In this document: positions 1-25,525 of the stretch, piece after piece
Position numbering within the stretch: the first letter of the stretch is position 1
Layout of the letters: every line of letters starts with the position of its first letter
NCBI RefSeq assembly: GCF_025751435.1
Contig: NZ_JAOWKY010000004.1
Span: 62,001 to 126,000, forward strand
Source of the DNA: Albidovulum marisflavi
Lineage (GTDB): Bacteria > Pseudomonadota > Alphaproteobacteria > Rhodobacterales > Rhodobacteraceae
Reading direction: 5' to 3'
Length of the DNA: 64,000 nt
Program-made: the position numbers and the translations under genes
The notes under the pieces: generated by a model
The model's input: only the letters and a program-made list of their open reading frames with translations
What the model was told of the DNA's origin: nothing
The model's database searches: none

Positions 1-750
1 TGTTATGAAGCCCACCTTCTGCCCCGTTTCCTCGATCCGGACATACCGCGCTGGCCCTCCCGATCGTTCGGCCAAGTCGGTCAGCGTGAAGCGTTCCGCC
101 AGGCGTGCGCGCAGGTCCTTGAGCGGCCAGTATTGGTCAAGCCTCAACTCTTCGCCCATCTCGCCCATCGGCATGACCTCGATGAAGGTCAGGTCGTGGT
201 CTTCGCGAGCGCACCATTCCAGAAGCGAGAACAGCTCATCCTCGTTGAAACCCTTCAGCGCGACGGTGTTGATCTTGACGCGAAGCCCGGCGCGCTTGGC
301 GGCCTCGATCCCCTGCATGACCTGGGGAAGGCGACCCCACCGGGTGATCTCGGCGAACTTTTCCTGGTCCAGGGTGTCGAGCGAAACGTTGACGCGCCGG
401 ATCCCGCAAGCGGCAAGCTCGTCCGCGAACCGGGCCAGCTGCGACCCGTTGGTGGTCAGCGTCAACTCGCTCAGCGCGCCGCTATCCAGGTGGCGGGCGA
501 TGGTGCGGAAGAAGGTCATGATGTCGCGCCGCACCAGCGGTTCGCCGCCCGTGATGCGAAGCTTGGTGACGCCGAGGTGGATGAAGGTGGAACAAAGCCT
601 GTCCAGCTCCTCCAACGTCAGCAGGTCCTTCTTGGGCAGGAACTGCATGTGTTCGGCCATGCAGTACGTGCAGCGGAAGTCGCAGCGGTCCGTGACCGAG
701 ACACGGAGGTACGAGATTGGCCGGGCGAAGGGGTCTATCAGAGGGGTCAT
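1..750 (-). CDS. moaA: GTP 3',8-cyclase MoaA (partial, C-terminus outside window)
   Basis: MoaA is a radical-SAM enzyme that rearranges GTP in the first step of molybdenum cofactor synthesis. The start codon is the ATG at 748-750 and 250 codons are visible before the gene runs off the left edge. The N-terminal radical-SAM cluster motif is clear: [10 protein letters not shown] places Cys23, Cys27 and Cys30 in the CxxxCxxC pattern, and an ITGGEP motif follows. The C-terminal part that would carry the second, substrate-side cluster lies mostly outside the window. It is the last visible gene of the minus-strand run that starts with glmU, 55 bases below the AlkD-like gene. The identification is firm. 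Confidence 0.95.
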
Positions 751-15253: not shown

Positions 15254-16467
15254 TGGACGGCACTTTCAACGACGCGCTGACCGGCGAGCAGAAGATCCGC
15301 AACTTCAACATCAACTTCGGTCCCCAGCACCCGGCGGCGCACGGCGTGCTGCGCCTTGTGCTTGAGCTTGACGGCGAGATCGTCGAGCGCGCTGACCCGC
15401 ATATCGGCCTTCTTCACCGCGGCACCGAAAAGCTGATGGAAAGCCGCACCTACCTGCAGAACCTGCCCTATTTCGACCGGCTCGACTATGTGGCGCCGAT
15501 GAACCAGGAACATGCCTGGTGCCTGGCAATCGAACGACTGACCGGGACCGAGGTTCCGCGCCGCGCGCAGTTGATCCGGGTGCTGTATTCCGAGATCGGC
15601 CGCATCCTGAACCACCTGCTGAACGTGACGACGCAGGCCATGGACGTCGGCGCCCTGACTCCGCCGCTGTGGGGGTTCGAAGAGCGCGAAAAGCTCATGG
15701 TCTTCTACGAACGGGCCTGCGGCGCGCGCCTGCACGCGGCCTACTTCCGCCCGGGCGGCGTCCACCAGGACCTGCCTGAAGACTTGATCAACGACATCGA
15801 GGAATGGGCCACCGCCTTCCCGAAGGTGCTTGACGACATCGACGGCCTTCTGACCGACAACCGCATCTTCAAGCAGCGCAACGCCGACATCGGCATCGTG
15901 CACGAGCAGGACGCTCTGGACTGGGGCTATTCGGGTGTGATGGTGCGCGGCTCGGGCATGGCGTGGGACCTTCGCCGTGCGCAACCCTACGAATGCTATG
16001 ACGAGTTCGACTTCAAGATCCCGGTCGGCAAGAACGGCGACTGCTATGACCGTTACCTGTGCCGCATGGCCGAGATGCGGGAATCCACCTCGATCATACA
16101 TCAGGCCATCGCCAAGCTGCGCGCGCCCGAGGGCCGAACCGACATCCTGGCGCGCGGCAAGATGACGCCGCCGAAGCGCGGAGAGATGAAGCGCTCGATG
16201 GAAGCGCTCATTCACCACTTCAAGCTTTACACCGAAGGTTTCCATGTCCCGGAAGGCGAGGTCTACGCCGCCGTCGAGGCGCCCAAGGGCGAGTTCGGGG
16301 TCTACCTGAAGTCGGACGGCAGCAACAAACCCTACCGCGCCAAGATCCGCGCGCCAGGCTTCCTGCACCTTCAATCGCTCGATTGGATGGCCAAGGGCCA
16401 CATGCTGGCCGACGTCGCCGCGATCATCGGCACGATGGACGTCGTGTTCGGGGAGATCGACCGGTAA
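15253..16467 (+). CDS. nuoD: NADH-quinone oxidoreductase subunit D
   Basis: The 49-kDa-type subunit (404 residues) forms most of the quinone-binding cavity together with NuoB. Characteristic segments are [14 protein letters not shown] near the N-terminus, the HRGTEKLME stretch, and the C-terminal [14 protein letters not shown]. The ATG at 15253 overlaps the nuoC stop (TGATG); a GTG one codon upstream is also possible. The last base of its stop codon is the first base of the small gene that follows. Confidence 0.96.
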
Positions 16468-16625
16468 TGCCCGACGTGACGATCAACCTCTGGACGCTGA
16501 TCCTCGGCGCGGCCTCGGGCCTTGCCGCGGTCTTCGGCGCGCGGGCGGGTAATCGTCTGGTCATGGGCGCCATCATCGGCGCCGCCACAGCCGCAATCCT
16601 GACTATCGCCAGGGGATACATCTAA
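16467..16625 (+). CDS. small membrane protein between nuoD and nuoE (unknown)
   Basis: A 52-residue frame, [15 protein letters not shown] at the start and a basic C-terminus (IARGYI). It begins on the last base of the nuoD stop (TAATG) and ends three bases before nuoE. Two hydrophobic stretches, each rich in Gly/Ala/Ile (about residues 8-24 and 30-48), with an Arg-containing turn between them, suggest a two-helix membrane hairpin. Its perfect fit between two structural genes and its protein-like composition argue that it is translated. I know no function. Unidentified small frames in the nuo cluster are described for Paracoccus denitrificans, but I cannot match this one by name. Confidence 0.6.
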   Translation: MPDVTINLWTLILGAASGLAAVFGARAGNRLVMGAIIGAATAAILTIARGYI

Positions 16626-16628
16626 GTC

Positions 16629-17753
16629 ATGCTCCGCCGTCTTCACAAAGAACAGCCTGCCTCCTTCGAATTCACGCCCGCGAACCTTGCCTGGGCGAAG
16701 GGGCAGATGACGAAATACCCCGAAGGGCGTCAGGCCTCGGCGGTCATCCCGCTTCTGTGGCGCGCGCAAGAGCAAGAGGGCTGGCTGTCCCGGCCCGCGA
16801 TCGAATATGTCGCGGACATGTTGGGTATGGCCTATATCCGGGCGCTGGAGGTTGCGACCTTCTACTTCATGTTCCAGCTGCAACCTGTTGGTTCCGTTGC
16901 CCATATCCAGATCTGTGGAACCACGTCCTGCATGATCTGCGGGGCAGAGGACCTGATCAAGGTCTGCAAGGAAAAGATCGCCGCCACGCCGCACACGGTT
17001 TCGGCCGATGGCAAGTTTTCCTGGGAAGAGGTCGAATGCCTTGGCGCCTGCACCAACGCACCCATGGCGCAGATCGGCAAGGACTATTACGAAGACCTGA
17101 CGCCGCAGAGCCTTTCGCGGCTGCTTGACGACCTTTCGGCGGGCAAGCTGCCGGTCCCGGGGCCCCAGAACGGGCGCTATGCTTCGGAACCGCTTTCCGG
17201 CCTGACGTCCCTGAAGGATCACGAAGGCGGCAAGGCGCAGTACAACGCCTCTGTGCAACTCGCGATGGACGTTCGCGACGGGATCAAGCGCATCGACGGA
17301 ACCGAGGTTCCGCTTTTGACACCCTGGCTCGGGCGCGCTGAACCCGCGACGCCGGCCAAGGGCAAGCCCAAGGAGCCCAAGCCTGCGGCCGGGAAGCGCG
17401 TGGATGAGACGGGTATCACGGTTCAGGAAGCGCGGGCGGTGCCGACCGGCGCCCCCAAGGTTTCGGCCAAACAGCGCGCGGCCGACGCCGCAAGCGTCGC
17501 GCAGGAAAAGCCTGCGGGCCTGACGGCCGCGCGGGCGGGCGGGGCAGACGATCTCAAGCGGATCAAGGGCGTTGGGCCCAAGCTCGAGGCGCTTCTGAAC
17601 AGACTGGGCTATTATCACTTCGACCAGATCGCGGCCTGGAGCCCGGCCGAGGTCGCCTGGGTCGATGAGAATCTGGAAGGTTTCAAGGGCCGTGTCAGTC
17701 GGGACGGATGGGTCGAACAGGCCAGGGCCCTTGCGGAAGACGGAAAGGATTGA
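16629..17753 (+). CDS. nuoE: NADH-quinone oxidoreductase subunit E with C-terminal helix-hairpin-helix-like extension
   Basis: NuoE is the 24-kDa [2Fe-2S] subunit of the NADH-oxidising module. The first about 170 residues are the standard thioredoxin-like domain, with ligands in [10 protein letters not shown] and in [10 protein letters not shown]. The protein is 374 residues, about twice the usual length. After a Pro/Ala/Lys-rich linker (about 230-300) it ends in a compact domain (307-374) beginning [18 protein letters not shown], a helix-hairpin-helix-like GVGP motif. The same domain recurs in the next gene, 61 percent identical over 62 residues by hand alignment. What the extension does in complex I is unknown. 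Confidence 0.93.
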
Positions 17754-17793
17754 GGAATTGAAGTAGCCCCGGCAGGGGCAGGGAACGGGAGAG

Positions 17794-18441
17794 ATGGCGC
17801 AGGTTTCGAATTCATCCTGTCGGACGCGATGCTGGCTGGGCGCGGCACTTCTGGGTGCGGTCGTAATTGTCGCGCTTATCCGATGGGCGAATGTGAGCCT
17901 GTTTTTCTCTTTGCTGATCGGGCTGGTTGCCTTCGCCGCGTCTGGTGCGCTGTCGACATCCAGGTTCTGCGCGGGCCGCAATCAGGAAGCGAAGGACGCG
18001 GTGGAATACGCCCCCCCCTCGCAGCAGTCCGAGCGCCCGCAGCCTGCCGTGGCCGCTGCCGTGGAGGACAAGGTGGAAGAGGCTGAAGAGGCACCCGGCG
18101 CGGCTCGCTCTGTTCCGCGCGACGAAGCGGCCCCGCTCATCGGACTTGACGCGGCGTTGTCTCGGGCGCGCCAGCGCAGTGTCGAGCCCCCGCCGGAATT
18201 CCTGACCGCCCCACGCGGCGGCAAGGCAGACGATCTGAAGCGCATCCGGGGCATCGGTCCCCAGCTAGAGGCGCTTCTGAACCAAACGGGCGTCTGGCAC
18301 TTTGACCAGATCGCCGGATGGCGGGCGCGGGATATCGCGCTTGTCGAAGAGAAGATGAAGGGCTTTCACGGCCGCATAACCCGGGACGAATGGGTCAAGC
18401 AGGCCCGTGCGATCGTCCAGGCCGGGCGGGGCGAGGGGTAG
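17794..18441 (+). CDS. membrane-anchored protein with NuoE-like C-terminal domain (unknown)
   Basis: A 215-residue protein with one or two N-terminal hydrophobic segments (about residues 10-50), an acidic Ala/Glu/Pro linker, and a C-terminal domain (146-211) that starts DDLKRIRGIGPQLEALLN and continues GVWHFDQIAGW, closely matching the NuoE tail. It appears to be a duplication of that extension placed on a membrane anchor. It lies 40 bases after nuoE and overlaps nothing at its 5' end; GAGAG precedes the ATG. A role in assembly or stabilisation of complex I is plausible from location only. Confidence 0.75.
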   Translation: MAQVSNSSCRTRCWLGAALLGAVVIVALIRWANVSLFFSLLIGLVAFAASGALSTSRFCAGRNQEAKDAVEYAPPSQQSERPQPAVAAAVEDKVEEAEEAPGAARSVPRDEAAPLIGLDAALSRARQRSVEPPPEFLTAPRGGKADDLKRIRGIGPQLEALLNQTGVWHFDQIAGWRARDIALVEEKMKGFHGRITRDEWVKQARAIVQAGRGEG

Positions 18442-18442
18442 G

Positions 18443-18670
18443 ATGGCGTCGAGGAAGAACGAAGAGAGCGACATGAGCCAGGCCCGGCAGGCCCGGGTTG
18501 TCGCGATCGTGATCGCCGTTGCCGGCGCCCTGTGGGTCGCGGCGCAATGGCTGGTCGAGCCGACAAGCCGCTACGCGGCCCTGTTCGACCTGATGGCTTT
18601 GGCGGCGTTCATCTGGGCGTTCGCGGTAACCTGGCGGATCTGGCGGCGCACCCGGCGCCAGGAAAGATGA
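18443..18670 (+). CDS. small membrane protein, DUF5337-like
   Basis: A 75-residue protein with two predicted membrane helices (about residues 16-34 and 41-58) and a strongly basic tail ending RRTRRQER. From memory it resembles the DUF5337 proteins found in Rhodobacteraceae nuo clusters. I start it at the ATG at 18443, with GAGGGG just upstream, one base after the preceding stop; the ATG at 18473 would give a shorter form beginning MSQARQAR. It ends nine bases before nuoF. Function is unknown. Confidence 0.65.
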   Translation: MASRKNEESDMSQARQARVVAIVIAVAGALWVAAQWLVEPTSRYAALFDLMALAAFIWAFAVTWRIWRRTRRQER

Positions 18671-18679
18671 GGAACTAAG

Positions 18680-19975
18680 ATGCTGAAAGATCAGGACCGG
18701 ATCTTTACCAACCTCTACGGGATGCACGACCGCAGCCTGAAGGGCGCCATGAAGCGCGGGCATTGGGACGGCACGGCGAAGATCCTGGCGGAAGGTCGGG
18801 ACTGGATCGTGCAGCAGATCAAGGACTCCGGGCTGCGAGGGCGCGGCGGCGCGGGCTTCCCGACCGGTCTGAAGTGGTCGTTCATGCCCAAGCAGTCCGA
18901 CGGCCGGCCGTCCTACCTTGTCGTGAACGCCGACGAATCCGAACCCGGAACCTGCAAGGACCGGGAGATCATGCGCCACGATCCGCACACGCTGGTCGAG
19001 GGTTGCCTGATCGCGTCCTTCGCGATGGGGGCGAATGCCTGCTACATCTACATCCGCGGCGAATACATCCGCGAACGCGAGGCGCTGCAGGCCGCGATCG
19101 ATGAGGCCTATGACGCAGGCCTGATCGGCAAGAACGCCTGCAAGTCGGGCTACGATTTCGACCTGTACCTGCACCACGGCGCCGGCGCCTATATCTGCGG
19201 TGAGGAAACGGCACTTCTGGAAAGCCTTGAGGGCAAGAAGGGCATGCCGCGCATGAAGCCGCCATTCCCGGCGGGCGCCGGCCTTTATGGCTGCCCGACG
19301 ACCGTGAACAACGTCGAATCCATCGCCGTCGTGCCGACGATCCTGCGCCGTGGGGCTTCCTGGTTCTCGTCCTTCGGGCGGCCGAACAACACTGGAACCA
19401 AGCTTTTCGGCATCTCCGGCCACGTCAACCATCCCTGCGTGGTCGAAGAGGAGATGTCGATCACGCTGAAGGAACTGCTGGAACGGCACTGCGGCGGCGT
19501 GCGCGGTGGCTGGAAGAACCTCAAGGCCGTTATTCCCGGCGGCTCGTCCGTTCCGATGCTGAATGCGTCGCAGTGCGACGAGGCGATCATGGACTTCGAC
19601 TGGCTGCGCGAGGCCCGTTCGGGCCTTGGCACCGCCGCCGTGATCGTGATGGACCAGTCCACCGACGTCATCAAGGCGATCTGGCGGCTGTCGAAATTCT
19701 ACAAGCACGAAAGCTGCGGCCAGTGCACGCCCTGCCGTGAAGGCACGGGCTGGATGATGCGGGTCATGGACCGCCTGGTGAAGGGCGAGGCCGAGATTGA
19801 AGAGATCGACATGCTGCTGTCGGTAACCAAGCAGGTCGAGGGTCACACGATCTGCGCCCTTGGCGACGCCGCCGCCTGGCCGATCCAGGGCCTTATCCGC
19901 CAGTTTCGCGACGAGATCGAGGACCGGATCAAGGCGAAGAAGACCGGCAAGATCAGCGCGGTGGCGGCAGAGTAA
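18680..19975 (+). CDS. nuoF: NADH-quinone oxidoreductase subunit F
   Basis: NuoF (431 residues) binds NADH, FMN and the N3 cluster at the entry of complex I. The nucleotide-binding stretch [15 protein letters not shown] and the [13 protein letters not shown] region are present. The N3 ligands are in [13 protein letters not shown], with the fourth cysteine in HTICALGDA. Length and order are standard. The stop at 19973-19975 is followed two bases later by a 53-codon frame that fills the gap to the next small membrane gene. Confidence 0.97.
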
Positions 19976-19977
19976 CG

Positions 19978-20139
19978 ATGATCCCGTCCGGCCAACATAT
20001 CGCGGCGTCCAAGAGCGGTAAGCTTCCGCGGCTGTCCGATGCTTCGCGCAGGGGCGGGTTTGCCGACGGTCGGCCGGTGTCTGATACCCTCAATGGCCGC
20101 GGCTGTCTGAGCGTCACGGGGAGGGGGCGTTCGCTATGA
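19978..20139 (+). CDS. possible 53-residue ORF filling the nuoF-downstream gap
   Basis: An ATG two bases after the nuoF stop opens a 53-codon frame whose stop overlaps the start of the next gene as ATGA. The product would be basic and rich in Arg, Gly and Ser, with no obvious membrane segment or motif. The overlap geometry mimics translational coupling, but a frame of this size can occur by chance in GC-rich DNA, and no Shine-Dalgarno is evident. Confidence 0.25.
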   Translation: MIPSGQHIAASKSGKLPRLSDASRRGGFADGRPVSDTLNGRGCLSVTGRGRSL

Positions 20140-20423
20140 TGTTCTTCGGATTGTTCGGACCGCTTGTTGCCTCGATCCTCTACGTCATCGTGATGCAGAA
20201 GGCCGGCTTTCGCGGCGCGATCCTTGCGGTGGCGTTTTCGCCGCTTCTAGGTGCAGTGCTGAGCTGGGTCTTCTTCTCGGGCTTCTACATGGGCGGCGGG
20301 CTGGCTTCGCTGGCCCATCTCGTGTTCGTGGCCCTGTCCCTTGCACCGCTTCTCGTGCTGGCCTTCATGTCCTGGCCGCCGGTGGGTTCCAGCCGCTCCA
20401 GAACGACGGAGAACTCTCGATGA
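20136..20423 (+). CDS. small membrane protein in the nuo cluster (unknown)
   Basis: A 95-residue hydrophobic protein with about three predicted membrane helices (residues 3-20, 26-45 and 54-80) and a short Ser/Arg-rich tail. GGGGAGGGGG lies upstream of the ATG. It overlaps the following exported-protein gene as ATGA, so the two are probably made together. It has no catalytic motif. It is likely one of the lineage-specific extra genes of the cluster. I cannot name a family. Confidence 0.65.
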   Translation: MMFFGLFGPLVASILYVIVMQKAGFRGAILAVAFSPLLGAVLSWVFFSGFYMGGGLASLAHLVFVALSLAPLLVLAFMSWPPVGSSRSRTTENSR

Positions 20424-20833
20424 TCATGGGCAACCTGCTGAAATCACTGACATTGACGGCGTTTCTGCCTGTCGCGACGGTCGCGGCGGAATTGCCGCCG
20501 CTGTCAGAAAACCAGCGCATCGTGAGCGAGTTTCTTGCCGCCGCCGTGGGCGACGAGATTCGCAAGAACTGCCCCACGATCCACGCGCGCTTCTTCCGCG
20601 TGCTGAGAAAGGCGAACGAGCTTGAGAATTACGCGCTTTCGCTCGGCTACACCGAAGACGACATTCGCGCCTTCCGGAAGAACGAGGACAACAAGGCTCT
20701 GCTCAGGCAGATGCGTGACGATTACCTCTCTGACAACGGCGTGACGCCGGAGGTCGCAGAGGACTATTGCCGTCTGGGGCGGCAAGAGATGGCGAACGAA
20801 ACCCTCATTGGATCGCTTCTCTGGGGCGGATGA
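20420..20833 (+). CDS. exported protein, DUF5333-like
   Basis: A 137-residue protein with an N-terminal signal-like segment (GNLLKSLTLTAFLPVATVAA) and a mature helical domain. Two cysteines (in KNCPTIHARFF and EDYCRLGR) could form a periplasmic disulfide. From memory it resembles DUF5333 proteins, which sit in the nuo cluster of Rhodobacteraceae before nuoG. The start may be codon 1 or the Met at codon 3. It is coupled to the upstream membrane protein by ATGA and lies 18 bases before nuoG. Role unknown; a periplasmic location would be unusual for a complex I partner. Confidence 0.7.
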   Translation: MIMGNLLKSLTLTAFLPVATVAAELPPLSENQRIVSEFLAAAVGDEIRKNCPTIHARFFRVLRKANELENYALSLGYTEDDIRAFRKNEDNKALLRQMRDDYLSDNGVTPEVAEDYCRLGRQEMANETLIGSLLWGG

Positions 20834-24153: not shown

Positions 24154-24615
24154 ATGAGCCTTCCCCAGAGCCTCGATAAGCGTTCGCCTCTTGATACCAT
24201 TCCTGAGTCGGTACAAGAGCGGCTTGGTCCTCTTCGGAACGAGACTGAACTGTCTATCGTCGGATTTCAGTTCGGCGGGCCAGTCAGCATGATTATAGCT
24301 CAGGACGAAAGCTACTACGTGACAAGTGAGCTTTCTCAACCGAAAGATTATAAATCGAGTAAGGAAGGCCTGCGCTACGAACTTGTCCTGAACTGCGCTT
24401 CAGGCAAAGCGTATGCGCAAGAGGCGCTGACCTTTCTTGCGCAGTACTTCGTGCAGAATCCAATTGGCGACGGCGAACGGGTTGTGCTCGGGCCGATTGC
24501 CGAAAAGCCGGCGCTGGAGGGGCGTGCAAGAATGCTGCGCAGCACCAATGAAAAACTGGGCGCCTACATGATAGTGCCCGACAATCCGCGCGAATTCGTG
24601 GAGAGGCAAACATGA
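24154..24615 (+). CDS. unknown 153-residue protein inserted between nuoH and nuoI, low GC
   Basis: A soluble-looking protein of 153 residues without a recognised domain, signal peptide or membrane helix. Its base composition is clearly lower in GC than its nuo neighbours, with many A/T-ending codons (for example TAT, AAA, GAT, TCT, ATA in 24280-24380). The start lies three bases after the nuoH stop and the stop overlaps the nuoI start as ATGA, so it is expressed in the operon. [10 protein letters not shown] ending and an [14 protein letters not shown] segment are the most distinctive parts. The composition suggests recent acquisition or a gene under unusual codon use. Confidence 0.75.
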
Positions 24616-25106
24616 CCCAGATCGACTATACACGCGCGGCGAAATACTTCCTGCTGTTCGATTTCATCAAGGGCTTCGGCCTTGGCTTCAAGTACTTCTT
24701 TGCCCCCAAGGCGACGCTGAACTACCCGCATGAGAAGGGGCCGCTGTCGCCCCGTTTCCGCGGCGAGCACGCGCTGCGCCGCTATCCGAACGGCGAGGAA
24801 CGCTGCATCGCCTGCAAGCTGTGCGAGGCGATCTGCCCGGCGCAGGCCATCACCATCGACGCCGAACCGCGCGAGGACGGCAGCCGCCGCACCACGCGCT
24901 ATGACATCGACATGACCAAGTGCATCTACTGCGGCTTCTGCCAGGAAGCCTGCCCGGTCGATGCCATCGTCGAGGGCCCGAACTTCGAATTCTCGACCGA
25001 GACGCGCGAAGAGCTTTTCTACACCAAGGAAAAACTGCTTGAAAACGGCGCCCGCTGGGAAGCCGAGATCGCCCGCAACCTCGAAATGGATGCGCCCTAC
25101 AGATGA
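24612..25106 (+). CDS. nuoI: NADH-quinone oxidoreductase subunit I
   Basis: NuoI (164 residues) holds two [4Fe-4S] clusters (N6a and N6b) that pass electrons to NuoB. Both ferredoxin motifs are complete: [15 protein letters not shown] and [15 protein letters not shown]. The N-terminus has the family amphipathic helix followed by [29 protein letters not shown], here read as separate segments. It starts in an ATGA overlap with the GC-poor gene and ends in one with the next gene. Confidence 0.97.
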
Positions 25107-25521
25107 GCGATGCCTTTCAGAAGATGTTTCAGCAAATGATGGAGCAGGGCCAGGAAATGGCCCGCACCCTCAATCCTGCGCTCGAGAATTTCAAGGGTTT
25201 CGATCTTGCCAAGATGTGGCCCACCATGTCCAAGGACATGATGGAAATGTGGTTCGGCAACACCTTCAACCGCGAAGGGTTGGACGCAAAGACGCGGCTT
25301 CTGCTGACCATCGCGGGGCTGACGGTTCTGGGCGCGCAGGCCGAACCGCAGATGAAGCTTGCCATCCGCCACGCGGTCGAGGCCGGTGCGACGCAGCGCG
25401 AAATTGCCGAAACGATCTATCAGATGAGCATGTTCGGCGGGCTTCCAGCGATGACCAAGGCGCTTGAGATCGCGCAATCGGTCTTTGACGAGGCCGAAAG
25501 GAACGAAACGGGGGACGACGC

Positions 25522-25525
<4 letters not shown>
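25103..25525 (+). CDS. carboxymuconolactone decarboxylase-family protein
   Basis: A 140-residue helical protein. The region from residue 55 to 130 ([20 protein letters not shown], then [20 protein letters not shown] and [10 protein letters not shown]) matches the CMD/AhpD-like fold. It lacks the CxxC redox pair of AhpD peroxidase-type members, so a disulfide-reductase function is unlikely. It also has a Met/Gln-rich N-terminus. It overlaps nuoI and nuoJ as ATGA on both sides, so it is translated with complex I. CMD-family genes at this place occur in related nuo clusters, but its role is unknown. Confidence 0.85.

Follow-up and report, generated by a model that had tools for sequence, protein, structure and literature searches.

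The C-terminal tail of NuoE and the membrane-anchored protein encoded next to it in the nuo cluster of Albidovulum marisflavi carry the same helix-hairpin-helix (HhH)-like domain, and the membrane protein is, judged by its sequence, an ortholog of protein-O of the RC-LH1 complex. Computational comparison of the two copies and their relatives reveals one domain with a common predicted fold and the same positions conserved; copies from the same genome are more alike than others, as gene conversion would produce. Our preferred but tentative reading, which we place somewhat short of an even chance, is that the domain acts as a tether that links complex I and a membrane hairpin to the same partner in the cytoplasm. 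New here are the occurrence of protein-O with paired cysteines in genomes without PufL/M, the concerted pattern of the two domains and a fusion to ribosomal protein S1; in the paper sections and search listings covered, which take in few subscription papers, we found no statement of protein-O or its paired cysteines in reaction-centre-less genomes, of the concerted pattern or of the S1 fusion.

NuoE and its tail occupy the following positions of the window, that is, of the whole stretch of 64,000 nucleotides that was analysed:

16629..17753, + strand: nuoE, tailed form (NCBIfam NF009040), 374 aa; 587.9 bits over residues 1-373, PF01257 at residues 25-169
17334..17498, + strand: flexible linker of NuoE from the redox core to the HhH domain (residues 236-290), pLDDT block means of about 40-50
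17529..17738, + strand: HhH (H3TH-like) domain of the NuoE tail, profile A1 E-value 8.1e-40 (G000:C5:79529-79738)

NuoE with a C-terminal HhH tail is an already curated family, NF009040 (PRK12373). The window NuoE, tail included, passes its cut-off of 514 bits with 587.9 bits and is an ordinary member with no notable difference. The Pfam redox domain stops at residue 169, and the Paracoccus denitrificans subunit (8qby_E, 239 residues) matches the window NuoE only up to residue 235. AlphaFold2 places about 55 residues (236-290) at a pLDDT of about 40-50, followed by the HhH domain with helices predicted at residues 317-325, 331-335, 339-348, 355-358 and 361-371. The 68-residue extension (residues 307-374) of the original prediction is thus present but longer than stated, since homology to the P. 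denitrificans protein ends at residue 235. The tail is found in 96 of 118 loci of the host family and is missing from 22. The solved structure of P. denitrificans complex I (8qby_E) contains a NuoE without the tail, and since that protein matches only to residue 235, the tail would not be needed for complex I catalysis. The available text of PMC11522691 confirms the code 8qby and names four extra subunits of the P. denitrificans complex, protein-O not being among those named there; that of PMC8115037 gives three extra complex I subunits and refers to a supplementary table for other proteins, which it regards as probable contaminants.

The neighbouring protein and the genes that follow it are arranged as follows:

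17794..18441, + strand: protein-O ortholog (transmembrane (TM) hairpin, linker, HhH domain), 215 aa; residues 5-213 aligned with 8yy9_O 6-227, E-value 2.6e-28
17809..17886, + strand: TM helix 1 of protein-O (residues 6-31), AlphaFold2 model, pLDDT about 96 past the first residues
17818..17820, + strand: Cys9 of protein-O, aligned with Cys10 of Dinoroseobacter shibae (disulfide partner)
17899..17970, + strand: TM helix 2 of protein-O (residues 36-59), AlphaFold2 model
17968..17970, + strand: Cys59 of protein-O, counterpart of D. shibae Cys59; structure alignment of 7..59 to 8..59
18211..18420, + strand: HhH (H3TH-like) domain of protein-O, profile A1 E-value 1.4e-33 (G000:C5:80211-80420)
18443..18670, + strand: DUF5337 small protein between the protein-O gene and nuoF, PF17272 E-value 1.4e-21
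18680..19975, + strand: nuoF, PF01512 E-value 4e-51 and PF10589 E-value 7e-33

A structure-sequence search with the window proteins returned 8yy9_O and 9wqv_a. According to the available text of PMC12079452, 8yy9_O is protein-O of the D. shibae RC-LH1, reported in 2025 as a new reaction-centre subunit; on the cytoplasmic side a disulfide between Cys10 and Cys59 closes its hairpin, its flexible C-terminal domain resembles the NuoE C-terminus, and its gene sits between nuoE and nuoF. The same paper proposes that it forms a conduit for quinone and speculates about a part in assembly. Protein-O, its position in the nuo cluster and the likeness of both C-termini are therefore already known. The D. 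shibae protein (PDB 8YY9, 8YZ2, 9JPB, 9KM0) matches its counterpart from the host-family genome G030 with full identity across 239 residues, and its gene lies in the nuoE/nuoF interval there as in the window. It resembles the window protein in the near-full-length alignment (E 2.6e-28), the TM hairpin, the cysteine pair, the C-terminal HhH domain and the gene position, whereas the linker differs and the D. shibae C-terminal peptide is absent from the window protein. The modelled hairpin superposes on 8yy9_O with a Z of 8.9 and an rmsd of 0.7 Å over 52 of 52 residues, the window side being a predicted model, and the modelled C-terminal domain has helices at residues 156-165, 170-174, 178-187, 194-197 and 200-211. 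The membrane anchor that had been claimed for this protein does tether one copy of the domain, and it takes the form of a two-helix hairpin formed by residues 6-31 and 36-59. The hairpin also gives weak matches to subunits of Tetrahymena complex IV and ATP synthase, which at Z below 8 may reflect no more than a similar arrangement.

Chain a of 9WQV, from the LH1-RC of Rhodovulum sulfidophilum, belongs to the same family as the window protein-O (E 2.6e-26) but, unlike it, is part of a reaction-centre complex. It was deposited as 'NADH:ubiquinone oxidoreductase 41 kd complex i subunit', and the window NuoE matches it by residues 247-372 only, the redox core being excluded. A reading of 9WQV as a complex I structure from this chain name was rejected, because the title is LH1-RC and a reaction centre L chain is inside. 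A literature search for the Rhodovulum LH1-RC found no paper. In the D. shibae deposit 9LTS, the protein-O chain is called 'Protein LRC'. Among the matches to named loci (at least 80), the best was that of Defluviimonas sp. WL0075 (62%).

Around the two genes, nuoD, nuoF and nuoG are Pfam-confirmed neighbours. The cluster also holds a DUF5333 (PF17267) protein at 20420-20833 and a carboxymuconolactone decarboxylase/AhpD-like protein (PF02627, E 2.9e-15) at 25103-25525, which adjoins a two-[4Fe-4S] protein (Fer4 domains; NuoI by eye) at 24612-25106. For the small ORFs at 16467-16625, 20136-20423 and 24154-24615, neither Pfam nor NCBIfam gives a family at E 0.01; the first encodes a 52-residue hydrophobic protein between nuoD and nuoE.

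BLASTP aligns NuoE residues 295-373 with protein-O residues 134-212 at 46 of 79 identical positions (58%, E 5e-31). This is close to the earlier hand estimate of about 61% over 62 residues and far from chance, so the claim of one domain in both proteins is borne out, and the domain region is the single meaningful match between the whole proteins. AlphaFold2 was given alignments of relatives that included the window's own sequences (n = 48 for NuoE, n = 76 for protein-O), and alignment A3 was made from every second of 93 suitable NuoE relatives. The models show five helices in the same order in both proteins, with the domain blocks at pLDDT 92-98; the whole models are weaker (pTM 0.48 and 0.38), parts of the NuoE core lying below pLDDT 50 and the linkers being of low confidence. 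The HhH-like fold proposed in the original prediction agrees with both motif and fold. G14 and G16 are invariant in 47 sequences, the HhH signature GxGP is intact and its K is mostly conserved. Structural matches include the HhH region of DNA polymerase theta (5a9j_B; Z 7.6, rmsd 2.2 over 66), NusA AR2 bound to SuhB (6ib8_C; Z 7.2, rmsd 2.5 over 64) and the HhH region of polymerase iota (Z 5.2 to 5.6), and since all of them lie below Z 8 and may mean only a common arrangement, the HhH call is based on motif and fold together. Foldseek gave no match to the domain at E 0.001 or better.

The likeness to NusA AR2 and HHH_5 (PF14520) is one of fold combined with a weak one of sequence, the window sequences lying below the Pfam cut-off: against 27 bits, the NuoE tail domain scores 17.4 and the protein-O domain does not appear among the HHH_5 matches, whereas HHH_5 is matched by 6 of 47 relatives at E 1e-5 or better (best 1.5e-8). 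Profile A1, a hand-made selection of 47 domains, shows weak similarity to the tail of eL32 (E 0.0044), to RadA (0.03) and to topoisomerase V (0.04). The domain also matches chain BS of the trypanosome mitoribosome weakly (Z below 8). The domain may be the one labelled H3TH / COG3743. The available text of PMC8686332 names COG3743 on a PHA synthase.

The NuoE and protein-O copies are the only ones in the window's genome at E-values up to 1. Among 241 genomes of the class, the domain occurs in 25 at E 1e-4, where 48 proteins give 50 matches, and the host family accounts for 4 of the 25. Host ORFs were covered for all 50 matches and Pfam was run on 47 of the 48 proteins, one L21 with an identical tail being omitted. 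Pfam confirmed the host protein in 28 of 47 cases (bL21 14, NuoE 9, uS2 3, bS1 1, phasin 1), and the remaining 19 were assigned by eye (4 protein-O, 13 other membrane-anchored, 2 long proteins). NuoE carries the domain in 9 of the 25 genomes, and in 16 it lies only outside NuoE; 14 genomes have a single copy, which in 7 of them is on a ribosomal protein. Within the host family, the domain is present in 110 of 120 genomes, 182 of 286 counted copies lie in the nuo locus, and copies outside the locus, counted by subtraction, occur in 84 of 109 genomes; twelve hand-picked places outside the locus comprised seven L21 proteins and five one-TM anchors. The outcome that the original prediction named as refuting, a domain unlinked to complex I in most genomes, is thus seen in part: most domain-bearing genomes of the class sample have it only outside NuoE, whereas in the host family most counted copies lie in the nuo locus. 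A complex-I-specific assembly factor was rejected, since NuoE is not among the hosts of the domain in 16 of 25 class genomes and the tail is dispensable. From the docking or assembly module originally proposed for complex I, docking remains plausible in the light of NusA AR2-SuhB, although polymerase theta ties with it as a fold match, whereas complex I specificity and a role in core assembly are not supported: the tail is gained and lost independently of protein-O and is missing from the complex I of Paracoccus, so it would be no core assembly part.

The profiles of bL21 (PRK12278), uS2 (PRK12311) and phasin PhaH (NF045508) match the tail domains with E-values of 1e-14 to 1e-24, far below the cut-offs set for the whole proteins, which is what a single domain common to different host proteins should give; the host-family L21 copies form a separate sequence class. 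A literature search for L21 with a helix-hairpin-helix found no paper. Ribosomal protein S1 carries a C-terminal HhH domain at locus L279 (genome G271), and in the same genome the domain is also on NuoE, L21 and a phasin. Multi-TM membrane proteins at L167 and L168, assigned by eye, have two copies each, and G028, a genome with no NuoE at threshold, has the domain on a different membrane-anchored protein. A further copy lies between protein-O and nuoF in ten loci, nine of these copies having no predicted TM helix; several of the extra ORFs at L059, L056, L078 and L093, among those ten loci, are phasin-like at the N-terminus by eye.

The main rival of the tether model is that the domain binds the backbone of RNA or DNA, holding polysomes, mRNA or DNA near the membrane and touching RNA on ribosomal proteins, and we regard this as rather unlikely. 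The intact GxGP signature with its mostly conserved K, the weak likeness of profile A1 to the eL32 tail, RadA and topoisomerase V, the polymerase theta and iota regions among the fold matches and the ribosomal hosts (bL21 14, uS2 3 and bS1 1 of 47) all point to such a function. By analogy, ComE/ComEA-type DNA-binding H3TH domains, one of them on a membrane-anchored DNA receptor according to the available text of PMC4777378, may provide an experimental precedent. However, the domain is slightly acidic, with a mean net charge of -1.3 in NuoE and -0.4 in protein-O (range -7 to +5), the host-family L21-borne copies fall into their own sequence class, and the equally good fold match NusA AR2 was solved bound to protein.

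PF00124 (PufL/M) finds nothing in the window's genome, which is 99.99% complete, and the best BchX score there is 27.6 bits against a cut-off of 331.2, compared with 436.6 in G030. The window genome thus differs from that of the D. shibae RC-LH1, and protein-O here is an ortholog and not an RC-LH1 subunit; since PufL/M and BchX are missing, it would have to sit outside RC-LH1. The wider sample comprised 120 host-family genomes of at least 90% completeness, with phototrophy defined by PF00124 alone; PufL/M was found in 44 of them and NuoE in 119. NuoE loci of up to 5 kb were classified in 118 genomes, G093 (NuoE at a contig end) and G028 (no NuoE) being dropped, and nuoF was found in all 118. 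Protein-O, defined as an HhH ORF between nuoE and nuoF in which a hydropathy window marks two or more TM helices, is present in 76 of the 118 loci, namely in 34 of 43 with PufL/M and in 42 of 75 without. Its retention at this place in 42 of 75 genomes that lack PufL/M means that protein-O must do something besides serving RC-LH1, and it was rejected as a phototrophy marker on the same count. Both hairpin-end cysteines are present in 53 of the 76 proteins, neither in 21 and only one in 2 (74 of 76 concordant), and both are present in 34 of the 42 proteins from genomes without PufL/M.

The NuoE tail is found in 30 of 43 loci with PufL/M and 66 of 75 without. Before tree correction, Fisher tests give a higher frequency of protein-O (p 0.016) and a lower frequency of the tail (p 0.025) with PufL/M. 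On a FastTree phylogeny of the NuoE core plus NuoF (118 rows), with independent pairs counted on supported branches, the link between PufL/M and protein-O is weak (4.0 same vs 0.8 opposite, 11 pairs, median p 0.25), that between PufL/M and the tail is not significant (0.3 same vs 2.7 opposite, 11 pairs), and that between the tail and protein-O is absent (about 2.1 same vs 2.8 opposite, 8 pairs). Tail and protein-O occur together in 66 loci, protein-O alone in 10, the tail alone in 30 and neither in 12, and the tree requires at least 18 changes of the tail and at least 28 of protein-O. An obligate pair of NuoE tail and protein-O was rejected, since gains and losses are independent. When PufL/M status is mapped on the tree of protein-O, at least 14 changes are needed, against a mean of 25 and a minimum of 20 in 200 shuffles; carriers with and without reaction centres are interspersed, yet they cluster more than they would by chance, in line with kinship. 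The domain is missing (E 1e-4) from G013, G025, G026, G041, G046, G054, G083, G084, G100 and G116, genomes that form natural negatives; G025, G026, G046 and G084 have PufL/M.

The mean identity of the domain is 0.652 between NuoE copies, 0.658 between protein-O copies and 0.647 between NuoE and protein-O copies across genomes, and it rises to 0.685 between NuoE and protein-O copies of the same genome (66 genomes), a value reached by 0 of 2000 random pairings. This within-genome excess may also reflect fresh duplications or lineage effects, the permutation leaving phylogeny in. Synonymous codons match within genomes at 0.61, against 0.53 expected from the genome's own codon pool, and exceed expectation in 54 of 66 genomes. 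The nearest relative of a protein-O domain is a NuoE tail in 35 of 76 cases and the tail of its own genome in 5 of 76. NuoE and protein-O copies are interspersed on the domain tree, with at least 41 changes against a mean of 56 and a minimum of 42 in 200 shuffles, so there is some sorting by gene and the two domains are not fully interchangeable. Apparently, the two domains evolve in concert, a pattern that would fit gene conversion or repeated duplication. The domains of nuoE and protein-O at locus L081 (G094) are 98.6% identical in DNA, a likely case of recent gene conversion or duplication. Ten L21-borne copies stand apart on the tree (2 changes; NuoE-L21 identity 0.545), whereas six copies on other host-family membrane anchors are 0.657 identical to NuoE and 0.661 to protein-O copies. 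A C-terminal peptide, mostly GxETEFSxRVxxGDVY-like, follows the domain in 60 of 76 protein-O proteins and 59 of 96 NuoE tails, as counted by a loose regular expression that also covers a variant ending in RAKTNDY; it is absent from both window copies. Within protein-O, mean identity is 0.65 in the domain, 0.25 in the hairpin and 0.29 in the linker, which suggests that selection acts on the cytoplasmic module.

Alternatively, the domain may be a tail that shuffles freely among proteins and does little by itself, easily acquired and kept by weak selection. Its absence from 22 of 118 NuoE proteins and from 10 of 120 host-family genomes altogether, its addition to NuoE, L21, S2, S1, phasin and membrane proteins and the many gains and losses on the tree agree with this, but we consider it improbable, because the domain is strongly conserved against a diverged hairpin and linker and is maintained in parallel in two genes. 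Least probable of all is that protein-O is primarily an RC-LH1 subunit, acting in a quinone channel or in assembly, and that the NuoE tail is an unrelated leftover of duplication: its presence in RC-LH1 structures of two species, the assembly speculation and conduit proposal in the available text of PMC12079452 and the opposite leanings of protein-O and tail with PufL/M speak for such a role, whereas its presence in 42 of 75 genomes without PufL/M, the absence of both phototrophy markers from the window's genome, the weakness of the association on the tree and the poor conservation of the hairpin sequence speak against it.

In the tether model, the domain would be a small interaction module of HhH fold, carried by a flexible rod. 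NuoE, a subunit at the NADH end of complex I, would bear one copy and the two-helix hairpin of protein-O another, with more copies on other membrane anchors in many relatives. The copies on NuoE and protein-O would share a single binding partner in the cytoplasm, or would bind each other, and complex I and membrane assemblies containing protein-O would thereby be gathered into one neighbourhood. In some phototrophs the hairpin lies inside RC-LH1, as others have shown; in genomes without reaction centres it would lie elsewhere. As lineages without the tether suggest, it would tune organisation and be dispensable for complex I catalysis. The within-genome identity excess, the interspersion of NuoE and protein-O copies, the synonymous matches, the shared C-terminal peptide, the conservation of the domain beyond hairpin and linker and the retention of protein-O without PufL/M argue for the tether, and NusA AR2, solved bound to protein and among the top fold matches, offers a precedent for docking. 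Against the tether are the lack of association between tail and protein-O on the tree, with its 10 protein-O-only and 30 tail-only loci, the sorting by gene, the rarity of the own NuoE tail as nearest relative, the absence of the shared peptide from the window copies, the fold matches below Z 8 and the empty Foldseek search; the single copy in 14 of 25 class genomes argues against an obligate pairing of two different copies.

A more specific proposal, which we hold to be unlikely, is that protein-O was originally a module of the nuo operon in respiratory bacteria, whether or not they had reaction centres, and that its HhH domain, which gene conversion keeps similar to the NuoE tail, physically couples complex I to other membrane complexes by way of one shared partner. 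If this is true, the protein-O hairpin lodged in the RC-LH1 of phototrophs would hold the reaction centre and complex I, both of which work on the quinone pool, together as a tether of a bacterial respiratory-photosynthetic supercomplex. Given its presence in the nuo operons of many genomes without PufL/M, protein-O must also act away from the reaction centre, probably in respiration and probably as a link. The finding of the domain on bL21, uS2 and bS1, on a phasin and on membrane anchors suggests that it is a recurrent interaction module of Alphaproteobacteria. The shared domain, which apparently evolves in concert, makes concrete the question of what the NuoE tail and protein-O both bind, and it thereby has a bearing on a possible physical association of complex I with RC-LH1.
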